A stretch of 21,480 nucleotides of DNA, taken from IMG/VR virus record IMGVR_UViG_3300032132_000743, positions 1 through 21,480 of that record; one strand, given 5' to 3'. The notes under the pieces were generated by a model. That model had not been told where the DNA came from. It saw only the letters and a program-made list of their open reading frames with translations, and ran no database searches. Both the position numbers and the translations under genes were made by a program. The stretch comes from a virus. Positions 1,343 through 21,480 of this stretch are shown piece after piece (positions within the stretch are counted from its first letter, which is position 1; every line of letters starts with the position of its first letter).

Positions 1343-1432
1343 GGAAGGGTGGCCGAGTGGTTTAAGGCACCGGTCTTGAAAACCGGCGTGCCTGCAAGGG
1401 CACCGTGGGTTCGAATCCCACCCCTTCCGCCA
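1343..1432 (+). tRNA. tRNA-Ser (anticodon TGA)
   Basis: All arms are visible. The acceptor GGAAGGG (1343-1349) pairs with CCCTTCC (1422-1428), followed by discriminator G and an encoded CCA. The anticodon stem CCGGT/ACCGG encloses loop CTTGAAA with anticodon TGA at 1377-1379, reading UCA serine codons. There is a long variable arm, as expected for a type II serine tRNA, and a T arm GTGGG/CCCAC with TTCGAAT. The gene is intact at its 3' end, as expected when a phage integrates there and restores the tRNA sequence. Confidence 0.97.
1404..1432 (+). other. Predicted attL (3' end of tRNA-Ser)
   Basis: The integrase gene begins about 160 bp downstream on the same strand, the usual arrangement for P4-type integrases that recombine within tRNA 3' ends. 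The attachment core should lie in the T arm and acceptor stem. No second copy of the tRNA 3' end occurs in this window, so the matching attR must lie beyond position 21480. The exact core borders cannot be set from one side. Confidence 0.6.
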
Positions 1433-1481
1433 GCCCTACGTTTTTCCCCGCCTACCCACGTCTAATTGAGCCACCTAAGTG

Positions 1482-1511
1482 CAGCAAGCGCAGTGACTTG
1501 CTGTCTTTTTG
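1482..1511 (+). terminator. Candidate intrinsic terminator after tRNA-Ser
   Basis: A 7-bp perfect stem CAGCAAG (1482-1488) / CTTGCTG (1497-1503) with an 8-nt loop is followed at once by TCTTTTTG. It lies about 50 nt after the tRNA on its strand and could end the tRNA transcript before the integrase. It sits on the element side of the presumed attachment site. The stem is only moderately strong. Confidence 0.5.
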
Positions 1512-1591
1512 TGTCTAAATTTGTCCTCCGAAGTCGAGCTATATCCGCGCTTAGGGCGTGGGTTCGGACGTGGGATTTGGAGGACACTTTC

Positions 1592-2812
1592 TTGGCACTT
1601 TCAGCTTTAAAAGTGAAAAACGCGAAGCCCGGTGAAAAGCTGAGTGATGGCGGTGGCCTGCGGCTGGACGTTGACGCGCGGGGCCGTTCGTCATGGATGT
1701 TTCGGTTCAAAAGCCCATTGACCGGCAAGGAGCGTTACATGGGATTGGGCGCTGCTTCGGATGTGAAACTCACGGAAGCGCGCGAAGCCGCAGAAGCGGC
1801 CCGCACCCTGCTCCGCAAAGGTGTCGATCCTATCGAAGCAAAAAGGGAGCAACGCGCCGCCGCCAGGGCGGAAGCAACTCGCGCCGTCACCTTTAAGCAA
1901 TACGCTGAGGGCTATATCGCCCGCATGGAGTCTGGCTGGAAAAACCCCAAGCATCGTCAGCAATGGACAAACTCACTGAAGACCTACGCATTCCCGGTGA
2001 TCGGCCAGACGCCCGTAGCCGATGTGCGCACTGTCGAAGTGATGAAAGTTCTCACACCGATTTGGAACATAAAGCCCGAGACGGCATCGCGGGTGCGGGG
2101 TCGCATCGAGATGATTCTGACAGCTGCCAAGGCTGAGGGGCTGCGAACAGGAGACAACCCGGCTGCATGGCGTGAGCGCATTAAGCCATTGCTCCCGAGC
2201 AAGCGAAAGGTGCGCAAAGTCCAGCACTACCCCGCCCTGCCCTATACGCTTCTCCCGAAGTTCATGGCGTCGCTACGCGCCGATACGTCTGATTCTGCGT
2301 TAGCGCTACAGTTCATCATTCTGACCGCTGCTCGCTACAACGAAGGCGCGTGGAGCGATTGGGCCGAAATTGACGAAAAGCAAGGTGTGTGGGTCATACC
2401 CGGCGCGCGAATGAAAGGTGATCGCGCCGACAAGCCGCATGCGGTGCCGCTCGCGAATGCCGCGCTGAAAGTCTTGGAAGCGGCGCGCGAGCGCAACAGC
2501 CAAACGGGTTTGATTTTCCCCGGCCAGCGACGAGGCCGACCGCTCAGCGATGTCACCTTAGCTAAAACGATTTCGCGTCATACTAGCTTGGAAGCCACAA
2601 CGCACGGCTTCCGCTCGACGTTCCGCGATTGGGCCGGAGACATGACAAACTTCCCTCGCGACCTCTGCGAGCAGGCGCTGGCGCACGCCATAGAGGACGA
2701 AACGGAAGCGGCTTATCGCCGTTCGGACGCTCTAGCGAAGCGGCGGCTATTGATGAACGAATGGGCGGCGTACTGTGGCTCTATGAGGTGCGGGCCTGAT
2801 GCGCACGCCTGA
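1592..2812 (+). CDS. int: P4-type tyrosine integrase
   Basis: This site-specific recombinase of the tyrosine family drives integration into tRNA-Ser. From the chosen start it is 406 aa, the usual family length. The N-terminus (LSALKVKNAKPGEKLSDGGG) is the arm-DNA-binding DUF4102 domain typical of P4-like integrases. A SAM-like core-binding region (about 100-200) and the catalytic domain follow: Arg about 248 in TAARYNE, Lys about 275, His338/Arg341 in HGFR, His365 in LAHA and the nucleophile Tyr375 in AAYRRSD. The frame opens upstream to an ATG at 1466, but those 42 residues are unlike the family. TTG at 1592 has GGAGG eight bases upstream, so I use it. The 3' end overlaps the convergent 569-aa gene by 32 bp. 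Confidence 0.93.
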   Translation: MALSALKVKNAKPGEKLSDGGGLRLDVDARGRSSWMFRFKSPLTGKERYMGLGAASDVKLTEAREAAEAARTLLRKGVDPIEAKREQRAAARAEATRAVTFKQYAEGYIARMESGWKNPKHRQQWTNSLKTYAFPVIGQTPVADVRTVEVMKVLTPIWNIKPETASRVRGRIEMILTAAKAEGLRTGDNPAAWRERIKPLLPSKRKVRKVQHYPALPYTLLPKFMASLRADTSDSALALQFIILTAARYNEGAWSDWAEIDEKQGVWVIPGARMKGDRADKPHAVPLANAALKVLEAARERNSQTGLIFPGQRRGRPLSDVTLAKTISRHTSLEATTHGFRSTFRDWAGDMTNFPRDLCEQALAHAIEDETEAAYRRSDALAKRRLLMNEWAAYCGSMRCGPDAHA

Positions 2813-4490
2813 TTGCCGGGTCGGCTAAGTCGCGGGCAGGAACATTTAAGAGGCTAAGCACGATACCCTTCGTTCTGCCATCGCCATAGGTAAATGTTAA
2901 CTCGGTCGTTCGGTTTGAGTATCGCATGTTATTCGGCAGATAATGCTCGATTTTGTAAGGCTGCGTTTGCGCCAAGATGGGAAGCTTTTGCATTTGTCGA
3001 TACACTAAGTCTCGTATGATATTGCTCGGGGTGGGCTTGTCGTCCGTCTTTGCAACGTACAAACCAATACATGACAACATCACTCTACTAATCGCAGGAT
3101 AGTAACCGTTCATATTGTCATTGAGCTTGTCGACAATCTTGAAAGCCAATCTTTGCTGAAATGGTGTCAATCCTATTTGGTCGCTGTATTTTTCAAAGCA
3201 CGCCCCAAAACTCTGCAACGCCATGATCCAAAACGGATCACGATAGCCGTTAAATTCGTTGGCAATGCCATTGAATGCTTCAATAACAATTTCGACAAGG
3301 TCCTGAAGCATGTCGCTGCGACGGTCGTCCGCAGACGTGACAAAAGCATAATCCCACTCGCTTGCACTAAAGCCCTCTTGGATTTTTTCGGCCAACGATA
3401 CGGCTTCTTCAACTGCGTCTTGAATGCGGATCATGAACATATGATCGACTGGTTTGATTTCGCGTACTTGATACAGCGATCTAAAAATGCCTTCGTAATG
3501 ATGCCGAACGCTCCACGCCGTTCTTGCATCATATATTTCTCCAGACTCGATTACGGAAGTTAAGCAACGCTTTGCAGCATTGTTGAAACGCTTTAATCCC
3601 TTCTCTTCGAACTTATTCTCTGTATTGAACCGCAATCCGGCGAGCGGATCATATCTAGTGACAATAAATGGAAGGTCGAAGAGACTTTCTGAAAGTACGG
3701 GCGCTGAGGCAAAACCCGTATAACCCGTTTCGCGCTCAAACATACTCTCATCACTGACGACGGCTTGCCGAGCAAGCCCTTGGATAAAAGGCTCGGCAGC
3801 GCGCGAGTGTAGTTCCTTATCGGAAAGGTCGCGAAGTATCGCGGCAGTCTGCCATGGCGCCTTTTCGATAAGAATTTTGCACAGTTTTTCGTCGGAAAGG
3901 ATGTGAAGAAATGAAGAAGCGTAACTAGACTGCTCTATTTTCAGCCGATGAGAGAACTCAACAAAAGCGGACGGCTTCCGCAAAGATTCAATGAACTTTG
4001 ATTCTCTGATGATTACGGGCAAGCTACGATGTAAGTCTTGAATAAAGTCGATGCAATCTTTGTCGTTGGCGGCGGATAACAGGCGCGCTGCGGCTTGAGC
4101 GAAACGCGAAATAGACTTTGCGTCGGCCAGTACGGGCCAGATTATAGCGACGATGATTGCTAAATACGCAGCTACAAAAAAGAGTCCTGCGATAATTTCC
4201 CATATCAAGGGGTATGAAAAGGGGCCGCGTTGTTGAAGCGCAGGGATGCTAGGTAAAATCGCTGCAATAAAAGAACAGGACGCGCCTATTAACATCAGCC
4301 CGTAAAGCAATTGCAACGAACCGAACCGCGCTCGCAGTCTGAAAGAATAAATTGGCTTCAAGAGTTGTTGGACAGCGAGTATGAAGCCGAGAGCAGAAAC
4401 GGCCTCACCAATGCTAAGATAAATGGACGTGGGAGCGGCGGGATTATAATTGCAAAGCCCTAGCGCTTCTATTCCTAAACAGGCGTGCAT
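2781..4490 (-). CDS. Hypothetical protein with three N-terminal membrane segments
   Basis: I do not recognise this 569-aa protein. Three hydrophobic segments at about residues 24-44, 57-80 and 95-121 are likely transmembrane helices. A long, probably cytoplasmic and largely helical domain (about 125-569) follows. No catalytic motif stands out. The gene is clearly richer in A/T than the phage genes to its right, suggesting separate acquisition. It lies 33 bp downstream of the 186-aa gene on the same strand and may be co-transcribed. Its 3' end overlaps the integrase 3' end by 32 bp. The ATG start has only a weak GAG upstream. The position beside the integrase is typical of accessory cargo such as defence or exclusion genes, but the sequence gives no direct evidence of function. 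Confidence 0.75.
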   Translation of the reverse strand: MHACLGIEALGLCNYNPAAPTSIYLSIGEAVSALGFILAVQQLLKPIYSFRLRARFGSLQLLYGLMLIGASCSFIAAILPSIPALQQRGPFSYPLIWEIIAGLFFVAAYLAIIVAIIWPVLADAKSISRFAQAAARLLSAANDKDCIDFIQDLHRSLPVIIRESKFIESLRKPSAFVEFSHRLKIEQSSYASSFLHILSDEKLCKILIEKAPWQTAAILRDLSDKELHSRAAEPFIQGLARQAVVSDESMFERETGYTGFASAPVLSESLFDLPFIVTRYDPLAGLRFNTENKFEEKGLKRFNNAAKRCLTSVIESGEIYDARTAWSVRHHYEGIFRSLYQVREIKPVDHMFMIRIQDAVEEAVSLAEKIQEGFSASEWDYAFVTSADDRRSDMLQDLVEIVIEAFNGIANEFNGYRDPFWIMALQSFGACFEKYSDQIGLTPFQQRLAFKIVDKLNDNMNGYYPAISRVMLSCIGLYVAKTDDKPTPSNIIRDLVYRQMQKLPILAQTQPYKIEHYLPNNMRYSNRTTELTFTYGDGRTKGIVLSLLNVPARDLADPAIRRAHQARTS

Positions 4491-4523
4491 TCAAAGCTCA
4501 TAAGTGATTGAAGCGAAGAGCTT

Positions 4524-5084
4524 CTAAATAGAACCTTTGTATCGCAGTGACTTCATCCTGGGCAAATCGACAGGCCGTGCTGGAAAAATAAACTCGTCAC
4601 TTTCAATCCATCGGCCTTCGAACTTATCCCAAAATCTTATCGCATCGAACTGCCGCTCGAACTCATAGACGCACCAGCGAATGTATCCCCGCTCGATCTT
4701 TTCGCCCGTCGCGTCGAATGGCACATTGTTATAGCGACAGCATGCAGCAATTGCGTCATAATTTTCTTGGACGTAAGAGTTCTGCAAAGCAACATGGTAC
4801 GGGTGCGATGCGCGCCAGCGCCCTATCCGCTTGACGCGCCGCTCGACGAACTCGGGATGCACTTGCAGAAAATCGGGAATGCGGGCGATTGCCTTTGCGA
4901 TCCGGCGCGCTTCGTCCGAAGTCAGATGTTTCCTGTAGTCGTCAAACTGCGCTGCGTGCAGATCGTCGCGACAATAGATCGACGCCAGAACGACACCGTT
5001 CGCATCCTTTACGACGTAGCCATGTTGCGTCCTTTCCACCGGCCAAGGCGGTGGAAATCGTCGTTTTTCGTCCCTTGACTCCAT
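4524..5084 (-). CDS. Hypothetical protein, FPPPW-type small Rhizobiales family
   Basis: The 186-aa product begins MESRDEKRRFPPPWPVERT, followed by a region around TSDEARRIAKAIARIPDFL. Short proteins with FPPPW then DEARRIA blocks are common, uncharacterised ORFs in Bradyrhizobium-type genomes. Here the conserved part is fused to about 110 extra residues rich in aromatic and charged amino acids. The frame extends upstream to 5246, but the extra 54 residues are Cys/Arg-rich and unlike the family. The ATG at 5084 is preferred because a good promoter places transcription start at or next to it, which would make the mRNA leaderless and explain the missing Shine-Dalgarno sequence. It is divergent from the 71-aa gene at 5135. 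Function is unknown. Confidence 0.75.
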   Translation of the reverse strand: MESRDEKRRFPPPWPVERTQHGYVVKDANGVVLASIYCRDDLHAAQFDDYRKHLTSDEARRIAKAIARIPDFLQVHPEFVERRVKRIGRWRASHPYHVALQNSYVQENYDAIAACCRYNNVPFDATGEKIERGYIRWCVYEFERQFDAIRFWDKFEGRWIESDEFIFPARPVDLPRMKSLRYKGSI

Positions 5085-5090
5085 AAGAAC

Positions 5091-5120
5091 AAAATAAGAA
5101 CATGATGGAAAGCTCGTCAA
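5091..5120 (-). promoter_or_regulatory. Candidate sigma-70-type promoter for the 186-aa gene
   Basis: On the minus strand, TTGACG (5120-5115) is followed after 18 bp by TATTTT (5096-5091), or after 17 bp by TTATTT. The -10 box ends six bases before the ATG at 5084, so the predicted transcript starts at or within a base or two of the start codon. This would be a leaderless mRNA. Confidence 0.55.
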
Positions 5121-5134
5121 TCTGGAACTAAGCT

Positions 5135-5350
5135 GTGACCGGCCTGCCCGAACAAAATCCACAAATGGAAATGGACCGGCTCGACGAAGCCACGGACCAA
5201 GCAATCGCCGCGTGCCATGGCGACATGCGGAGCGCCCTTCGCACATTGATTTTAGCGAACGAGTTTCTTGAGCATGAACTGCTCACGAATGTTTCGCAGG
5301 GCTATACGCGTCGCGCGCATCATGGAAGGATCAAAACTTATCGTGCCTAA
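5135..5350 (+). CDS. Small hypothetical protein, Rhizobiales family
   Basis: This 71-aa protein has the core MDRLDEATDQAIAACHGDMR, then RTLILANEFLEHEL, predicted helical and soluble. Short proteins with this DEATDQAIAAC...LI.ANEFLE pattern are common uncharacterised ORFs in Bradyrhizobiaceae, to my knowledge. GTG at 5135 with GGAA upstream gives the longest product. ATG at 5165 or 5171 would match the usual family start better. It is divergent from the 186-aa gene across about 50 bp and is followed after 18 bp by the DUF6161-like gene on the same strand. Function is unknown. Confidence 0.7.
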   Translation: MTGLPEQNPQMEMDRLDEATDQAIAACHGDMRSALRTLILANEFLEHELLTNVSQGYTRRAHHGRIKTYRA

Positions 5351-5368
5351 TTAAACTTTGAGGATTTT

Positions 5369-6580
5369 ATGGCTGAGCAATTTTTTACAGTCGACTCACC
5401 AGACGGATCGCGACTTGAGTTCAGTTCGTTTGATGAAATTGATACTTGGTTGGAGAAAGAGCGCGCGGCTCAACAGTGGCTTGACAAAGGAGGTCAAGCG
5501 GCTGGCGGCGAGGTCGATAATCTCCGAAATTCTCGCGCATCCCGATACGCTGGCATTCGAAAGCGCTTAGATAATTGGAGAGCCGATCCCGAAAGCGCAC
5601 ATGCTCGGCAAAATCTCAGCAATGCTTTTACGAATTTAATGGGAGATCATACTTTTGTTGGGTCAGGTCATCCGTTTGTGCTCATCGCGTCCGACATTGC
5701 GATTAAAGACGGTCCGGTCGCGGCTTCCGCAGCGCTCGGCACTCTTCTCGGCGTGCCTTGCAATCCGAGTACTGAAACAATCAAAGGCACCTTGGGCGCT
5801 ATACTAAGGCGAGACGGCATCGAACCAACCTCGCCGCAGATTGTTAGTAACGCGATCCAAGAATTAAATGCCTCCGCAACAACCACAAGCGCAAAGCAAC
5901 GGGCAGAATGGGATGCATTAAAGCTCAGTGCCACTTCTCAACTAGACGGCACGAAGACTTCGTTCGAGCAACAAACCGTTGCGGCGCATGAAAAGATTGC
6001 AACCACCATTGAGCGCATAAACAGTGAAGTTAACAATGCAATCTTCAATATCCAGGCAACTGAGGCCGGTTATAAAACGCAAATGCAGCTTCAAGCTCCC
6101 GTGGATTATTGGAACACAAAAGCGACTGCTCACAGAGAAGCCATTACAGGCTGGTTCGGCTCTCGATCTCGCCTAATTTATTGCGCGTCTATCGGAAGTC
6201 TTATTTTGATCGTCGTGCTTCTAATGCTCGCTACAAGTGCAGTGGAGATAGCTGAGCGCGCCAAGGGGGACACTGCGATCTATCTGAAATTTGCGGCAAT
6301 TGGCGCAATCATAACTACAATTGTCTTTTGGATAAGTCGCGTTCTTCTTCGAATCTATTTGAGCGACCGACATTTGTTGACTGACGCCGAAGAACGCGTG
6401 GCGATGATAAAGACCTACCTCGCTTTAAGTAACGAAGGAAAAGTCGAAGCTGTCGATAGAGCATTGATATTAGCACCGCTGTTTCGTTCGGCGTCAGATG
6501 GCATCGTCAAAGACGAAGGGCCAGACGCTTCCGTTGCGGGCGTACTCGCAAAATTACTCGATGTGCGCGGGGGCAGATAG
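5369..6580 (+). CDS. DUF6161-like coiled-coil membrane protein
   Basis: The 403-aa product resembles the uncharacterised DUF6161 family as I recall it. Its N-terminus contains a 'fxSfdEidtWLekE' block (residues 18-32). A long polar helical and probably coiled-coil stretch covers about 170-245. The QAPVDYW motif (242-248) with following KATAHREAITGWF precedes two transmembrane helices at about 268-290 and 304-328, and a short C-terminal helical tail follows. The topology suggests a membrane-anchored protein with a large N-terminal cytoplasmic part. ATG at 5369 has GAGG five bases upstream. It is followed after 25 bp by the PIN-like gene, so the two probably form an operon. Base composition is A/T-richer than the structural genes. 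A role in defence or toxin control is inference from location and partner only. Confidence 0.75.
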   Translation: MAEQFFTVDSPDGSRLEFSSFDEIDTWLEKERAAQQWLDKGGQAAGGEVDNLRNSRASRYAGIRKRLDNWRADPESAHARQNLSNAFTNLMGDHTFVGSGHPFVLIASDIAIKDGPVAASAALGTLLGVPCNPSTETIKGTLGAILRRDGIEPTSPQIVSNAIQELNASATTTSAKQRAEWDALKLSATSQLDGTKTSFEQQTVAAHEKIATTIERINSEVNNAIFNIQATEAGYKTQMQLQAPVDYWNTKATAHREAITGWFGSRSRLIYCASIGSLILIVVLLMLATSAVEIAERAKGDTAIYLKFAAIGAIITTIVFWISRVLLRIYLSDRHLLTDAEERVAMIKTYLALSNEGKVEAVDRALILAPLFRSASDGIVKDEGPDASVAGVLAKLLDVRGGR

Positions 6581-7587: not shown

Positions 7588-7896
7588 TCAATGGGGTGCG
7601 CCTCCAAACGCAGTCATTAGTTCGCGCGTTCTTGCCCGGCCTAGTCCCCGCTCCAAATGCGCGAAGCCGCATGCCTTAATGAGTGTCTCGACAGCGACGC
7701 GCGGCAAATATCGTTTGCGCGACGCCGCCCAGGCGAGTGCGGGCAGCAACTCGTCTGGAACGCTTTCGATCATGAGGAATACGTCGAGAGACGTGCGGCA
7801 TTTCCGCAGAACGCCTAGCGCCGGAATCAAAATGTCCGGCGTCTCTATCTCCGCGCTACCAGTGCGCGGTGTGTGGTGCAGCCTCAGATCGTTCAT
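7588..7896 (-). CDS. Hypothetical protein of the late operon
   Basis: I do not recognise this 102-aa product. The N-terminal third is strand-like and polar; the rest looks helical (CRTSLDVFLMIESVP, LLPALAWAASRKRYLP). It starts with a 4-nt ATGA overlap on the gpFII-like gene, so it is translationally coupled and presumably a neck or tail protein. A gpU-like tail terminator is a conceivable role by position only. The stop is followed by the hairpin cluster at 7497-7578. Confidence 0.65.
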   Translation of the reverse strand: MNDLRLHHTPRTGSAEIETPDILIPALGVLRKCRTSLDVFLMIESVPDELLPALAWAASRKRYLPRVAVETLIKACGFAHLERGLGRARTRELMTAFGGAPH

Positions 7897-8321
7897 ATCG
7901 CACCCGCTGAAGGTCGCCCAAGCTGCACCACGTCAACGGTCACACGCGCAACGCCGTCCGGCTTAACGGATGTGACTTCGAACGCGCTGCCATCGCAGCG
8001 ACGCTCGATGCGATAGCCTTGCAGAATCGGAAACGGCAGAGCCTTCGCCGTGAAAGTAAAGACCGGGTCGCGGCTAGAAACTTCTAACAGCGGCGTGAAG
8101 CTGCTTTGTCCCGCGTATCCTTTCTTGCCGCCTTCCTCTCGGAAGACCGATTTCGCTTTCCAAAAGAACACCGCGACAACTTGGCTGCGCTGCGATTCAT
8201 CCGGCGTCGCAGGAAAGTTCGGCCTTCGAAGTACGGGCGTAATAAACACGACTTCGCCCATCGTCTCGTCAATCGCGGCGGACACGTCTTGCATCCCCGC
8301 TCGCCAGTTTGTCTGAAACAT
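7893..8321 (-). CDS. Probable head-tail joining protein, gpFII-like
   Basis: The 142-aa protein has the general pattern of lambda gpFII-type head-tail adaptors: an N-terminal helix with a conserved Met (FQTNWRAGMQDVSAAIDETM), then the strand GEVVFITPV, a proline-rich loop with PATPDESQRS, a hydrophobic strand VVAVFFW and beta-strands to the end. Such proteins seal the neck between portal/gpW and the tail. The assignment rests on pattern and size. AGGGG lies six bases before the ATG. The gene follows the tape measure stop by nine bases and overlaps the 102-aa gene by 4 nt. In lambda-like phages this gene lies before the tail genes, so its place after the tape measure gene is unusual. Confidence 0.55.
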   Translation of the reverse strand: MFQTNWRAGMQDVSAAIDETMGEVVFITPVLRRPNFPATPDESQRSQVVAVFFWKAKSVFREEGGKKGYAGQSSFTPLLEVSSRDPVFTFTAKALPFPILQGYRIERRCDGSAFEVTSVKPDGVARVTVDVVQLGRPSAGAI

Positions 8322-18313: not shown

Positions 18314-18354
18314 AAGATAAGACTTTGTCTCCCGACAACTCAGCCCCTGTGCCG

Positions 18355-18377
18355 TTCCCTCTCTTAGAGAGAGGGAA
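18355..18377. repeat. Perfect 10-bp hairpin beside repeat array
   Basis: TTCCCTCTCT (18355-18364) and AGAGAGGGAA (18368-18377) are perfectly complementary around the loop TAG. It lies 41 bp after the 216-aa gene stop and directly before the 8-mer array. There is no T-run after it on either strand, so it is a poor intrinsic terminator. A role as part of a replication origin is plausible. Confidence 0.65.
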
Positions 18378-18380
18378 ACG

Positions 18381-18560
18381 TGCACGGTGAGTGGGAAAAT
18401 AGATGCACGGTTCATGCACGGTCATCGCACGGTCGGGCTATGTAGCTGATTTTCCTACAAAACGACCGTGCATCTCACTGTGCAGCCACCGTGCACATGA
18501 CCGTGCAAGCCACCGTGCATCGACCGTGCACGGTTAACGAATGAACAGTCCTTGCACGGT
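18381..18560. repeat. Iteron-like array of TGCACGGT motifs, candidate replication origin
   Basis: Ten perfect copies of TGCACGGT or its complement ACCGTGCA and two single-mismatch copies lie in 180 bp. Forward copies start at 18381, 18404, 18415, 18426 (CGCACGGT), 18527 and 18553. Reverse copies start at 18465, 18477 (ACTGTGCA), 18488, 18500, 18512 and 18523. Within the blocks spacing is 11-12 bp, close to one helical turn, so bound proteins would sit on one face. Copies at 18523 and 18527 form the palindrome ACCGTGCACGGT. An A/T-richer gap at 18441-18464 splits the two blocks. The region 18314-18655 has no gene. The nearby primase-helicase suggests an origin; a repressor- or regulator-binding array is the alternative. 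Confidence 0.75.
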
Positions 18561-19278: not shown

Positions 19279-21480
19279 CTACGGCATCCGGTACTCTGTT
19301 CGCCTGTTGTCTCCGCTCTTCACGATCTCGCCGCGCTCAGCCAGCTTTCCCAACAGCCGCGTCGCCATTGTTCGATCTTTCAGCACGGGCAGCCCCGCGC
19401 CTCGACGATCTGCATTCAACGCATTGAATACTCGGCCCGCAGATACCCCGACCTCGCCGAGCTTGTCGCCGGTCGTCGCTGCGCCTTCGTTTGCCAATTC
19501 TTCGACGATACGGAGCACCGCTCGTAGCTTGTCTTCAGGCGTATCCGGTGCGATCAATGCTGCATCGTCTTCGACATCATCGACGACCAAATCGGCTCGC
19601 GGCATTTCCTCAACGGCCAGCATTACATTTATGTCGTCGCCGTCCTCATCCTGTCCGATCTTGTGAGACTTCAGCCGGTAGCCAAACTCGACCTTTGCCG
19701 GATCGCCGATGCGATACTTTGACCCCGCCTTGATCGTCCCCCGCCCTGCCTTATCGCGCGACACTTCGATAACGGTATCGACGTTCGCCTGTAGCGCGCC
19801 GCTCCCCCGGACGCCGTCGCCCGCCTTCGTGGGGTGCGCAAGCGCCGTCACGTTCGCGCCGGTCGCGTCAGATATGCGTTTCAGCGCAGCGGTGTAGATT
19901 CCCGCGTCTTTTGCGCTGTTATCGTCGCCGGGCGCGATGCTTTGCGCCAAGGTATCAAGCACAATCATTGCAACGTCGAGACGGTAATGCCGCGCCGCTA
20001 TTGAGGCGATTTCGATCAGGTCCTTTTCATCACGCGTCGGCTTGCCGCTCGGATCGAATAGGCAACACGGCCCGCGATGCACGACGAATGCGCCGTCGCT
20101 AACATCCCGGCCTGCTTTCTCCATAAGCTCGCACCATGTCGAAACGCGCCTCTCGACATCATCCGAGTTTTCCAAGGCGACGTAAATCACGACGCCCTTT
20201 GTCACTTTCCTACCCCGCCACTCGAAACCGTGCCCGACATGCAAACCAATGTCGGAAAAAACCGCCGTTTTGCCAGCGCCCCATAGGCCAGTCGCAACGG
20301 AAGTTGTGCCTCTCGCGACGACGAACTTAATGCACCATTCGAGAAAACGAACGGCCGCTCCGCGCAGATTTTCGATGTACTCGAATCGTCGCGCCAACCG
20401 GGTGCGGACCTCCGGCTGCACGACTTCAATCTGATCGCTCACATCTCCGAATGCCGCACCGTCGCTCGGCTTATAGACCAAGCGCGGCGATAGCTTCGCC
20501 TTTGCGAACTCCCGCGCGAGTTGGCGCGCGTCGAAGTCGCCCGCGCCATCCCACTCGCCGCAAAATGCAGCGTAGTCCTGCACGGTTAAATCGGGAAACG
20601 CGCCAGCGAGATAGCACGCTGCGTTAAAGCGGTTGGCTGATCGGTCGCTCGACGGGTCGTCGTAAAGCTTGATGAAACCCGGCTCACAGTCGCGAAGGTA
20701 TTGAAGGCTATATCCGCCAAGCGCCTCATCGAACGCGACGGAAAAGTCCGGCCACGCCTCCGCGCCTAGCTGCCCTATCAGGCTTTTAATCGTCGGGTCC
20801 GAATCGCTCAGCGACGCTTCGGCTTCCGACGCTTCGCCGATCTTGGCGCGAATGTAATCGGGCACTTCCGGAATCTTTCCGCCCCGATAAGCGCGAAGGA
20901 AGGCGTACAAGTCTTCCCGTGTGCCGTAGCGCTTCCCGTCTTCACGCCAAGAGCCAGGCGCAACGGTCTGACCGCCCCGCCCCCGAACATCCGTACCGTA
21001 TTCGCGCTTCAACGCACCCGCGCGATTGCCGAATGTACCGTCAGACTTCAAGTAGAGATGAAACCCGCCGTCACGCGTCGGCACCTTCGGCGCGCCCTCG
21101 GGATAACCATGATCTTCGAGCAGTTGGCCTAACTTCTCCGGCCCGCCGTCTTTTGCATCCGCATCCAGCACGACCAAGCCAGACGGTCCGCACGCAATCG
21201 AAGGCACGGCGTCGGGGTACTTGCGCCAAAGCATTTTTACGACGGATAGCGTCCGCGTCGCTCCGATGTGCGGCGGCTCTTCGCCATCATGCTCTTGCCG
21301 GTACTTGGCCGCGTGGTCTTCCCGCTCGTCGTCCGTAAGATCGGTGTCGAGCCGATTGAATGCCTTGACGAGTGGCACTTTGCCAGAACTCGGAAAGACG
21401 ACGAGTCCGCATTCGGCCAACATGCGCGCGTTTTCTGCGTTGACGTTGCGGCGTGCCTGGGTGTTGTTAACGTCGCTCAT
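19279..21480 (-). CDS. Bifunctional Prim-Pol primase / RepA-type helicase
   Basis: The 733-aa protein combines two replication activities. Residues about 15-200 are a Prim-Pol (archaeo-eukaryotic primase) domain: the catalytic acids are in LVVLDADAKDGG (Asp106, Asp108), followed by GGFHLYLK (His141) and VRGRGGQTVAPGS. Residues about 370-600 are a RecA-fold hexameric helicase of the RepA/AAA type with Walker A GLWGAGKT (398-405), VALENS (Glu437), Walker B AMIVLD (504-509) and sensor His549 in ALAHPTK. The C-terminal 90 residues look like a winged helix (LRAVLRIVEELA, TTGDKLGEVGVSAGRVFNAL) and may bind DNA. Such proteins start replication in phages, plasmids and satellites. The ATG is at the last base of the window, so the upstream context is unseen. 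Confidence 0.93.
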   Translation of the reverse strand: MSDVNNTQARRNVNAENARMLAECGLVVFPSSGKVPLVKAFNRLDTDLTDDEREDHAAKYRQEHDGEEPPHIGATRTLSVVKMLWRKYPDAVPSIACGPSGLVVLDADAKDGGPEKLGQLLEDHGYPEGAPKVPTRDGGFHLYLKSDGTFGNRAGALKREYGTDVRGRGGQTVAPGSWREDGKRYGTREDLYAFLRAYRGGKIPEVPDYIRAKIGEASEAEASLSDSDPTIKSLIGQLGAEAWPDFSVAFDEALGGYSLQYLRDCEPGFIKLYDDPSSDRSANRFNAACYLAGAFPDLTVQDYAAFCGEWDGAGDFDARQLAREFAKAKLSPRLVYKPSDGAAFGDVSDQIEVVQPEVRTRLARRFEYIENLRGAAVRFLEWCIKFVVARGTTSVATGLWGAGKTAVFSDIGLHVGHGFEWRGRKVTKGVVIYVALENSDDVERRVSTWCELMEKAGRDVSDGAFVVHRGPCCLFDPSGKPTRDEKDLIEIASIAARHYRLDVAMIVLDTLAQSIAPGDDNSAKDAGIYTAALKRISDATGANVTALAHPTKAGDGVRGSGALQANVDTVIEVSRDKAGRGTIKAGSKYRIGDPAKVEFGYRLKSHKIGQDEDGDDINVMLAVEEMPRADLVVDDVEDDAALIAPDTPEDKLRAVLRIVEELANEGAATTGDKLGEVGVSAGRVFNALNADRRGAGLPVLKDRTMATRLLGKLAERGEIVKSGDNRRTEYRMP

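Follow-up and report, generated by a model that had tools for sequence, protein, structure and literature searches.

The DNA analyzed here (the window) is a complete IMG/VR record of 21,480 bases with an A+T content of 43% and is a prophage fragment. It carries a tRNA-Ser gene, an integrase gene, and a set of accessory genes, and its minus strand encodes tape measure, portal, and neck proteins as well as both terminase subunits, the large one being of the GpA type (Table 1). The last part of the record is taken up by a primase-helicase gene. As the start codon of this gene (positions 21478 to 21480) is also the last codon of the record, with the upstream sequence lying beyond it, the N terminus of the protein may be incomplete. 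Downstream, the gene points at an array of octamer repeats that begins 0.7 kb from its stop codon, with one small open reading frame (ORF) between the two. The terminase small subunit gene lies 1.8 kb from the array. On the side of the array opposite the primase gene is a 272-aa ORF, for whose product no match was found in phages. As it has no family match, this ORF is only a putative gene; were it real, the array would sit between convergent genes.

The Pfam matches in the primase-helicase are limited to a Prim-Pol domain and an AAA_25 domain. By profile comparison, the N-terminal half matches the phage NrS-1 primase structure (6a9w). For the helicase domain, RSF1010 RepA (1g8y) is a match both by profile (E 1.9e-13) and by Foldseek (TM 0.76, normalised by target). 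In the AlphaFold2 model (mean pLDDT 83), the C-terminal tail consists of three helices plus a beta wing, and its fold matches, obtained with Foldseek and VIA-align, are winged-helix domains. They include the MCM C-terminal domain and the winged helices by which Orc1/Cdc6 and ORC bind origins (VIA Z about 9 to 10.6). The P4 alpha C-terminal structure is absent among the tail fold matches listed, which speaks neither for nor against kinship. According to this model, the tail is a winged helix, although sharing a fold is no proof of function.

Table 1. Features of the window, in order of position (aa, amino acids)
Feature	Positions	Strand	Details
tRNA-Ser	1343-1432		
Tyrosine integrase	1466-2812		
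Accessory genes	2781-6580		Between integrase and late genes; 569-aa protein without family match; DUF6161 protein
ORF, 272 aa	17495-18313	+	Without family match; on the other side of the array from the primase gene
Degenerate iteron partner	18350-18355		TGCCGT; pairs with the iteron at 18377-18388
Hairpin	18355-18377		TTCCCTCTCT-TAG-AGAGAGGGAA; perfect 10-bp stem, 3-nt loop; primase-distal side of the array
Additional one-mismatch site	18377	-	Overlaps the first iteron
Exact TGCACGGT sites	18381, 18404, 18415, 18527, 18553	+	
Exact TGCACGGT sites	18465, 18488, 18500, 18512, 18523	-	
One-mismatch site	18426	+	CGCACGGT
One-mismatch site	18477	-	TGCACAGT
Forward iteron block	18381-18433	+	TGCACGGT at 18381, 18404, and 18415; CGCACGGT at 18426
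Spacer between inverted blocks	18434-18464		31 bp; A+T 55%
Reverse iteron block	18465-18530	-	Six sites: five TGCACGGT and TGCACAGT at 18477
Palindrome	18523-18534		ACCGTGCACGGT; two opposed overlapping sites
Two more forward sites	18527-18560	+	At 18527 and 18553
ORF, 70 aa	18656-18868	-	Without family match; between the array and the primase gene
Primase-helicase gene	19279-21480	-	733 aa
Winged-helix tail, proposed octamer reader	19282-19539	-	C terminal; residues 648-733
Recognition helix and wing of tail			Residues 704-733
RepA-type hexameric helicase domain	19816-20346	-	AAA_25; residues 379-555
Prim-Pol domain	20908-21420	-	PF09250; residues 21-191

Layout of the octamer array

A first-pass annotation of the window had described twelve octamer sites, ten of them perfect, at positions 18381 to 18560, with one palindrome among them and a perfect 10-bp hairpin beside them. 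A search of the window recovered all twelve sites, and the palindrome and the hairpin are both present. Read along the primase gene, the order is an outlying site, the overlapped palindrome, the six-site block, the spacer, the opposed four-site block, and the hairpin. The annotation had also held that such an array cannot be due to chance, and the counts agree: the densest 7-mer occurs in 11 copies within 300 bp, compared with at most 3 in 100 dinucleotide shuffles, and only about 0.006 exact TGCACGGT copies are expected per 180 bp. Elsewhere in the window, there is a single exact copy, at position 20579. The number of one-mismatch octamers in the whole window (25 found versus 18.65 expected) is uninformative, because the signal is one of local clustering.

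The spacing within the blocks (11 and 11 bp in one and 12, 11, 12, 12, and 11 bp in the other) is as annotated. However, this spacing does not support strict helical phasing, and the binding to one DNA face that had been read from it is only approximate, since at 11 to 12 bp successive sites drift around the helix. Related arrays have a spacing of 9 to 12 bp.

Two features went unmentioned in the annotation. One is the 31-bp spacer between the opposed blocks, which is likely the melting site. The other is an outer stem of the hairpin that is made by an iteron: when the single-stranded DNA is folded, the first iteron pairs with its degenerate TGCCGT partner. The hairpin itself has one pyrimidine-rich arm and a TAG/CTA loop. 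The folding z of the hairpin region is −4.5 and −6.3 for the two strands, and similar values were obtained for the related elements L037, L004, L005, and L054.

Octamers and tails in related elements

All relatives of the primase with readable 3′ sequence (5/5) have a downstream array together with a hairpin. A related element with the same primase and no repeats, which the annotation had named as the case that would speak against an origin, was not found among these five closest relatives. The octamer, the two-block layout, and the hairpin are all the same as those of the window in L037, located in an Afipia genome (helicase and tail 66% identical to those of the window), in L005 (full-length primase-helicase, 55% identical), and in L032, a record that covers only the last primase codons. 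In these three elements and the window, the spacer is exactly 31 bp long, with 13 of the 31 positions invariant and an A+T content of 55 to 61%. The overlapped palindromic pair at the primase-proximal end also recurs in L005 and L037, with one site degenerate in the latter. The 4.6-Mb Afipia genome has no paired octamer outside the prophage array.

Other relatives carry other repeats. The primase gene of L004 (about 45% identical) is directly followed by ACTGGCGGA repeats and a hairpin. The repeats are AAAGTGCCG in L054 and GCATGAT in L055, again with a hairpin in each. As these elements differ in the repeat but keep the layout, the anatomy of the array is kept while the octamer changes.

We compared the identities of the protein domains between elements. 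In pairs with the same octamer, the tails are 58 to 66% identical, and helix 3 plus the wing is 70 to 80% identical, whereas neither value exceeds 43% in pairs with different octamers. The identities of the Prim-Pol and helicase domains fail to separate the two kinds of pairs. Two chimeric combinations illustrate this. L005 and L054 share 74% identity in the Prim-Pol domain and 76% in the helicase but only 30% in the tail, and their motifs differ. L005 and L037 have tails that are 58% identical (helix 3 plus wing, 77%), and their motifs are the same although L037 lacks the Prim-Pol domain. In this Afipia prophage (L037:8637-11122), a separate 313-aa protein without a family match replaces the Prim-Pol half, and the N terminus of the helicase is different. 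L037 is thus a natural primase swap with the tail and the octamer retained. Among the close relatives, a new octamer thus always comes with a new tail, and a new tail with a new octamer. For six elements, a label permutation cannot yield a P value below 0.05, and we therefore made a wider test.

For this, we collected 86 nonredundant helicase loci from viral contigs and Hyphomicrobiales genomes and scanned 1.2 kb 3′ of each gene for the densest 7-mer on both strands. The annotation had suggested looking for arrays beside related Prim-Pol genes, and arrays do occur 3′ of the Prim-Pol/RepA-type genes: 61 of the 86 loci have a significant array 3′ of the helicase gene, in most cases no more than 300 bp from the stop codon, compared with 2/71 5′ flanks and 3/170 random windows of the same loci. 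No significant 3′ array was detected in 25/86 of these more distant loci, and some of the detected arrays (L066 and L148) may be other repeats. Across the 61 array loci, motif similarity was correlated with the similarity of the tails once that of the helicases was accounted for (partial r = 0.30; P = 0.001 [by a Mantel test]). After deduplication, the tail effect was 0.23 (P = 0.001), and the effect of the helicase given the tail was 0.03 (P = 0.27). Under the strictest deduplication, the tail effect falls to 0.11 (P = 0.047).

Pairs of loci in which the tail and the array were replaced together were also found. The phages L078 and L115 share homology over most of their length, yet their DNA similarity ends at position 7705, 92 codons before the helicase stop, and returns at 8178, just past the L078 array (8014 to 8127). 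Their tails are unrelated, and their motifs are TGCTACA and GTGAAGA, respectively. Between L078 and L092, the break falls at the same position (7705), and homology returns at 8177. The replaced block is about 470 bp long (the other two arrays are L115:7980-8103 and L092:5678-5825). As the homology breaks span exactly the tail codons and the array, the two change as a unit. The placement of the reader domain at the C terminus, beside its target, may reflect this, since a single exchange moves both.

Arrays directly 3′ of the gene are also present in named phages, with 12 copies of CGTGACA in Rhizobium phage 16-3, a 13-copy array in RHph_X2_25, and 11 copies of CTACAAA in Roseobacter phage CRP-811. 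No array was found 3′ of the gene in Caulobacter phage GB2A. Circular, plasmid-form carriers are Methylobacterium currus unnamed4, Caenibius p1, and a 17-kb Klebsiella element. The M. currus element (L173; NZ_CP089300.1; 35 kb, circular) is phage-plasmid-like and has ParA, a BrnT/BrnA toxin-antitoxin pair, and a CGCAACA array. Among its annotated and scanned proteins, many of which are hypothetical, a Toprim primase and a RepA-type helicase are the only recognized replication genes. GC skew gave no origin signal in the two circular elements for which it was calculated.

The hairpin is a recurrent companion of the arrays. Near 18 of the 61 arrays lies a hairpin that has an A/T loop and one arm rich in C (typically CCCCTTTAGGGG), compared with 0.22 expected and 0/47 in 5′ controls. 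A looser definition, together with added phage and plasmid cases, yielded 31 hairpins, and 27 of these have opposed iterons on both sides, versus 113/620 (18%) random positions in the same arrays. By analogy with RSF1010, the hairpin may be a core origin element that acts as a single-strand initiation site. We rejected a role as an intrinsic terminator for the window and its close relatives, in which no T-run follows the hairpin. A short T-run does follow it in phage 16-3, and in some phages, this one included, the hairpin may serve as a terminator.

A candidate origin and its alternatives

The linkage of the array to the gene, the fold model of the tail, and the covariation of octamer and tail support the earlier proposal of an iteron-type origin that is read by the winged-helix tail. 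We consider it highly probable that the array is the replication origin of the phage, placed 3′ of its initiator gene, and that the octamers are bound by the tail of the primase-helicase. This Prim-Pol/RepA-type protein would bind each TGCACGGT octamer through its C-terminal winged helix, and the two opposed protein-bound blocks would melt the 31-bp spacer and/or allow the extrusion of the iteron-clamped hairpin. The RepA-type helicase domain could then assemble on the exposed strands, and the first primers would be made by the Prim-Pol domain. A single protein would in this way cover the roles that are split among RepC, RepA, and RepB′ on RSF1010. We lean, with confidence only a little above even, toward a broader reading in which the tail, the 3′ array, and the iteron-clamped CCCC-(A/T loop)-GGGG hairpin are swapped as one cassette, giving full phages and phage-plasmids private origins of a PICI-like class, with the hairpin as the priming site.

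The tail could also bind the array while replication starts elsewhere, the array being an enhancer or a site for copy number control and incompatibility. There is a precedent in P4, in which the alpha protein binds iterons both at the origin and at a separate site, crr, and in the window an ORF does separate the array from the gene, 0.7 kb away. However, no other repeat cluster of the 3′ region is as dense as the array, its opposed blocks, spacer, and hairpin form an origin layout, and in most of the distant relatives the array directly follows the stop codon, like PICI origins (PMC6092414). We regard this alternative as unlikely. Still less probable is an operator for a phage transcription regulator. 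Repressor sites also show clustered 8-mers with palindromic pairs, but the arrays of the window and of 61/86 loci lie 3′ of the primase gene and not at a promoter region, while the 5′ flanks are nearly empty. Moreover, the motif tracks the primase tail, and the paired octamer of the Afipia genome is confined to the prophage array.

Recognition by the terminase small subunit, as at a packaging site (cos/pac), would fit the position of the arrays between the primase and the neck and terminase genes among the relatives, and the terminase small subunit has a weak helix-turn-helix match. The terminases themselves make this reading very improbable. L055, with small and large subunits 57% and 67% identical to those of the window, has another motif, while L005, with subunits only 52% and 52% identical, has the same motif; a terminase site is disfavored because the element with the closer terminases is the one with the different motif. 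In distant loci, the array also stays with the helicase gene. Some carriers are plasmids with ParA, which brings to mind a parS-like partition centromere of an extrachromosomal prophage. We give this reading almost no weight, as ParA and the array are about 11 kb apart in the M. currus plasmid, no ParB gene adjoined any of the arrays inspected, and the motif follows the helicase tail.

Relation to known replication systems

The proposed origin, in which an array 3′ of the initiator gene would be read by the winged-helix tail, is most readily compared with those of the SaPI/PICI satellites. In these, the origin lies directly 3′ of the gene for the initiator-helicase (Rep or Pri-Rep), with two sets of iterons around an A+T-rich region (PMC6092414), and the iterons of SaPI Rep and SCCmec Cch2 are read by the C-terminal domain (PMC7581432). 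Similarly, the arrays described here lie 3′ of the putative initiator gene (61/86 loci; 0.7 kb downstream in the window), and opposed iteron sets flank an A+T spacer, in which the enrichment is mild (55 to 61% in four elements). Unlike the satellites, the window has its own terminase, portal, neck, and tape measure genes. The helicase also differs, being of the RecA-fold RepA type (AAA_25), often fused to Prim-Pol, and found in integrase-bearing prophages with full sets of head and tail genes. A further difference is the conserved iteron-clamped hairpin of the present arrays.

The helicase of P4 alpha belongs to SF3. P4 alpha combines a Toprim primase, a helicase, and a C-terminal winged helix that binds origin repeats (PMC4234260). 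The fusion of primase and helicase with a C-terminal winged helix is shared with the protein of the window, whereas the primase domain is Prim-Pol instead of Toprim and the helicase is RepA type. The oriV of RSF1010 has iterons and stem-loops, and its initiator, helicase, and primase are RepC, RepA, and RepB′ (PMC4234260). Iterons, a stem-loop, and a RepA-family hexameric helicase are common to both systems, but here the functions reside in one gene, and no separate initiator was recognized in the window. The iteron reader would be the winged-helix tail, for which we claim no kinship to RepC. In pRN1 ORF904 and BIP-1-type phages, Prim-Pol, helicase, and C-terminal winged-helix domains are combined, and an essential stem-loop lies 3′ of the gene (PMC4234260). 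These systems differ in having an SF3 helicase and one long stem-loop without iterons, compared with the RepA-type helicase and iterons found here. The domain layout is shared with the PrimPol-PV1 primases, which have a RepA-type helicase and a winged helix suggested to recognize origins (PMC5862659); the present analysis locates candidate origins and matches them to tails.

In the open literature, to which our search was confined, we found no description of the origins of RepA-type phage primase-helicases. What is most likely new here is a RecA-fold RepA-type helicase with its own proposed iteron-reading tail in full phages, a layout also present in dozens of phages and phage-like plasmids. 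This would extend to full phages a type of origin layout that has been ascribed to phage satellites alone. It would also provide a simple rule for finding origins in temperate phages and phage-plasmids, most of which are uncharacterized, namely, to search the DNA immediately downstream of the RepA-type helicase gene, as well as a sequence-based key to which initiator tail reads which octamer. The laboratory phage 16-3 and the natural swap pairs offer testable cases, and orthogonal pairs of tails and octamers could act as compatible plasmid replicons.

A search of viral contigs for the TGCACGGT-type motif returned mostly chance pairs, with clusters only in L005, L010, L015, L031, L032, L034, L007, L029, and L036. 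We rejected the last three as arrays, as they look like coding or short tandem repeats. Two-block TGCACGGT arrays lie beside the gene for an Sf6-type terminase small subunit in L031 (10460 to 10744), L015 (1299 to 1584), and L010 (469 to 741). Those of L031 and L015 follow a Prim-Pol/D5-type primase-helicase, which belongs to a different helicase family and has an unrelated-looking tail. The octamer of these three elements is probably convergent. In L034 (6766 to 6926), an all-forward TGCACGGT array followed by hairpins lies after a DnaB-N plus AAA_25 helicase gene.
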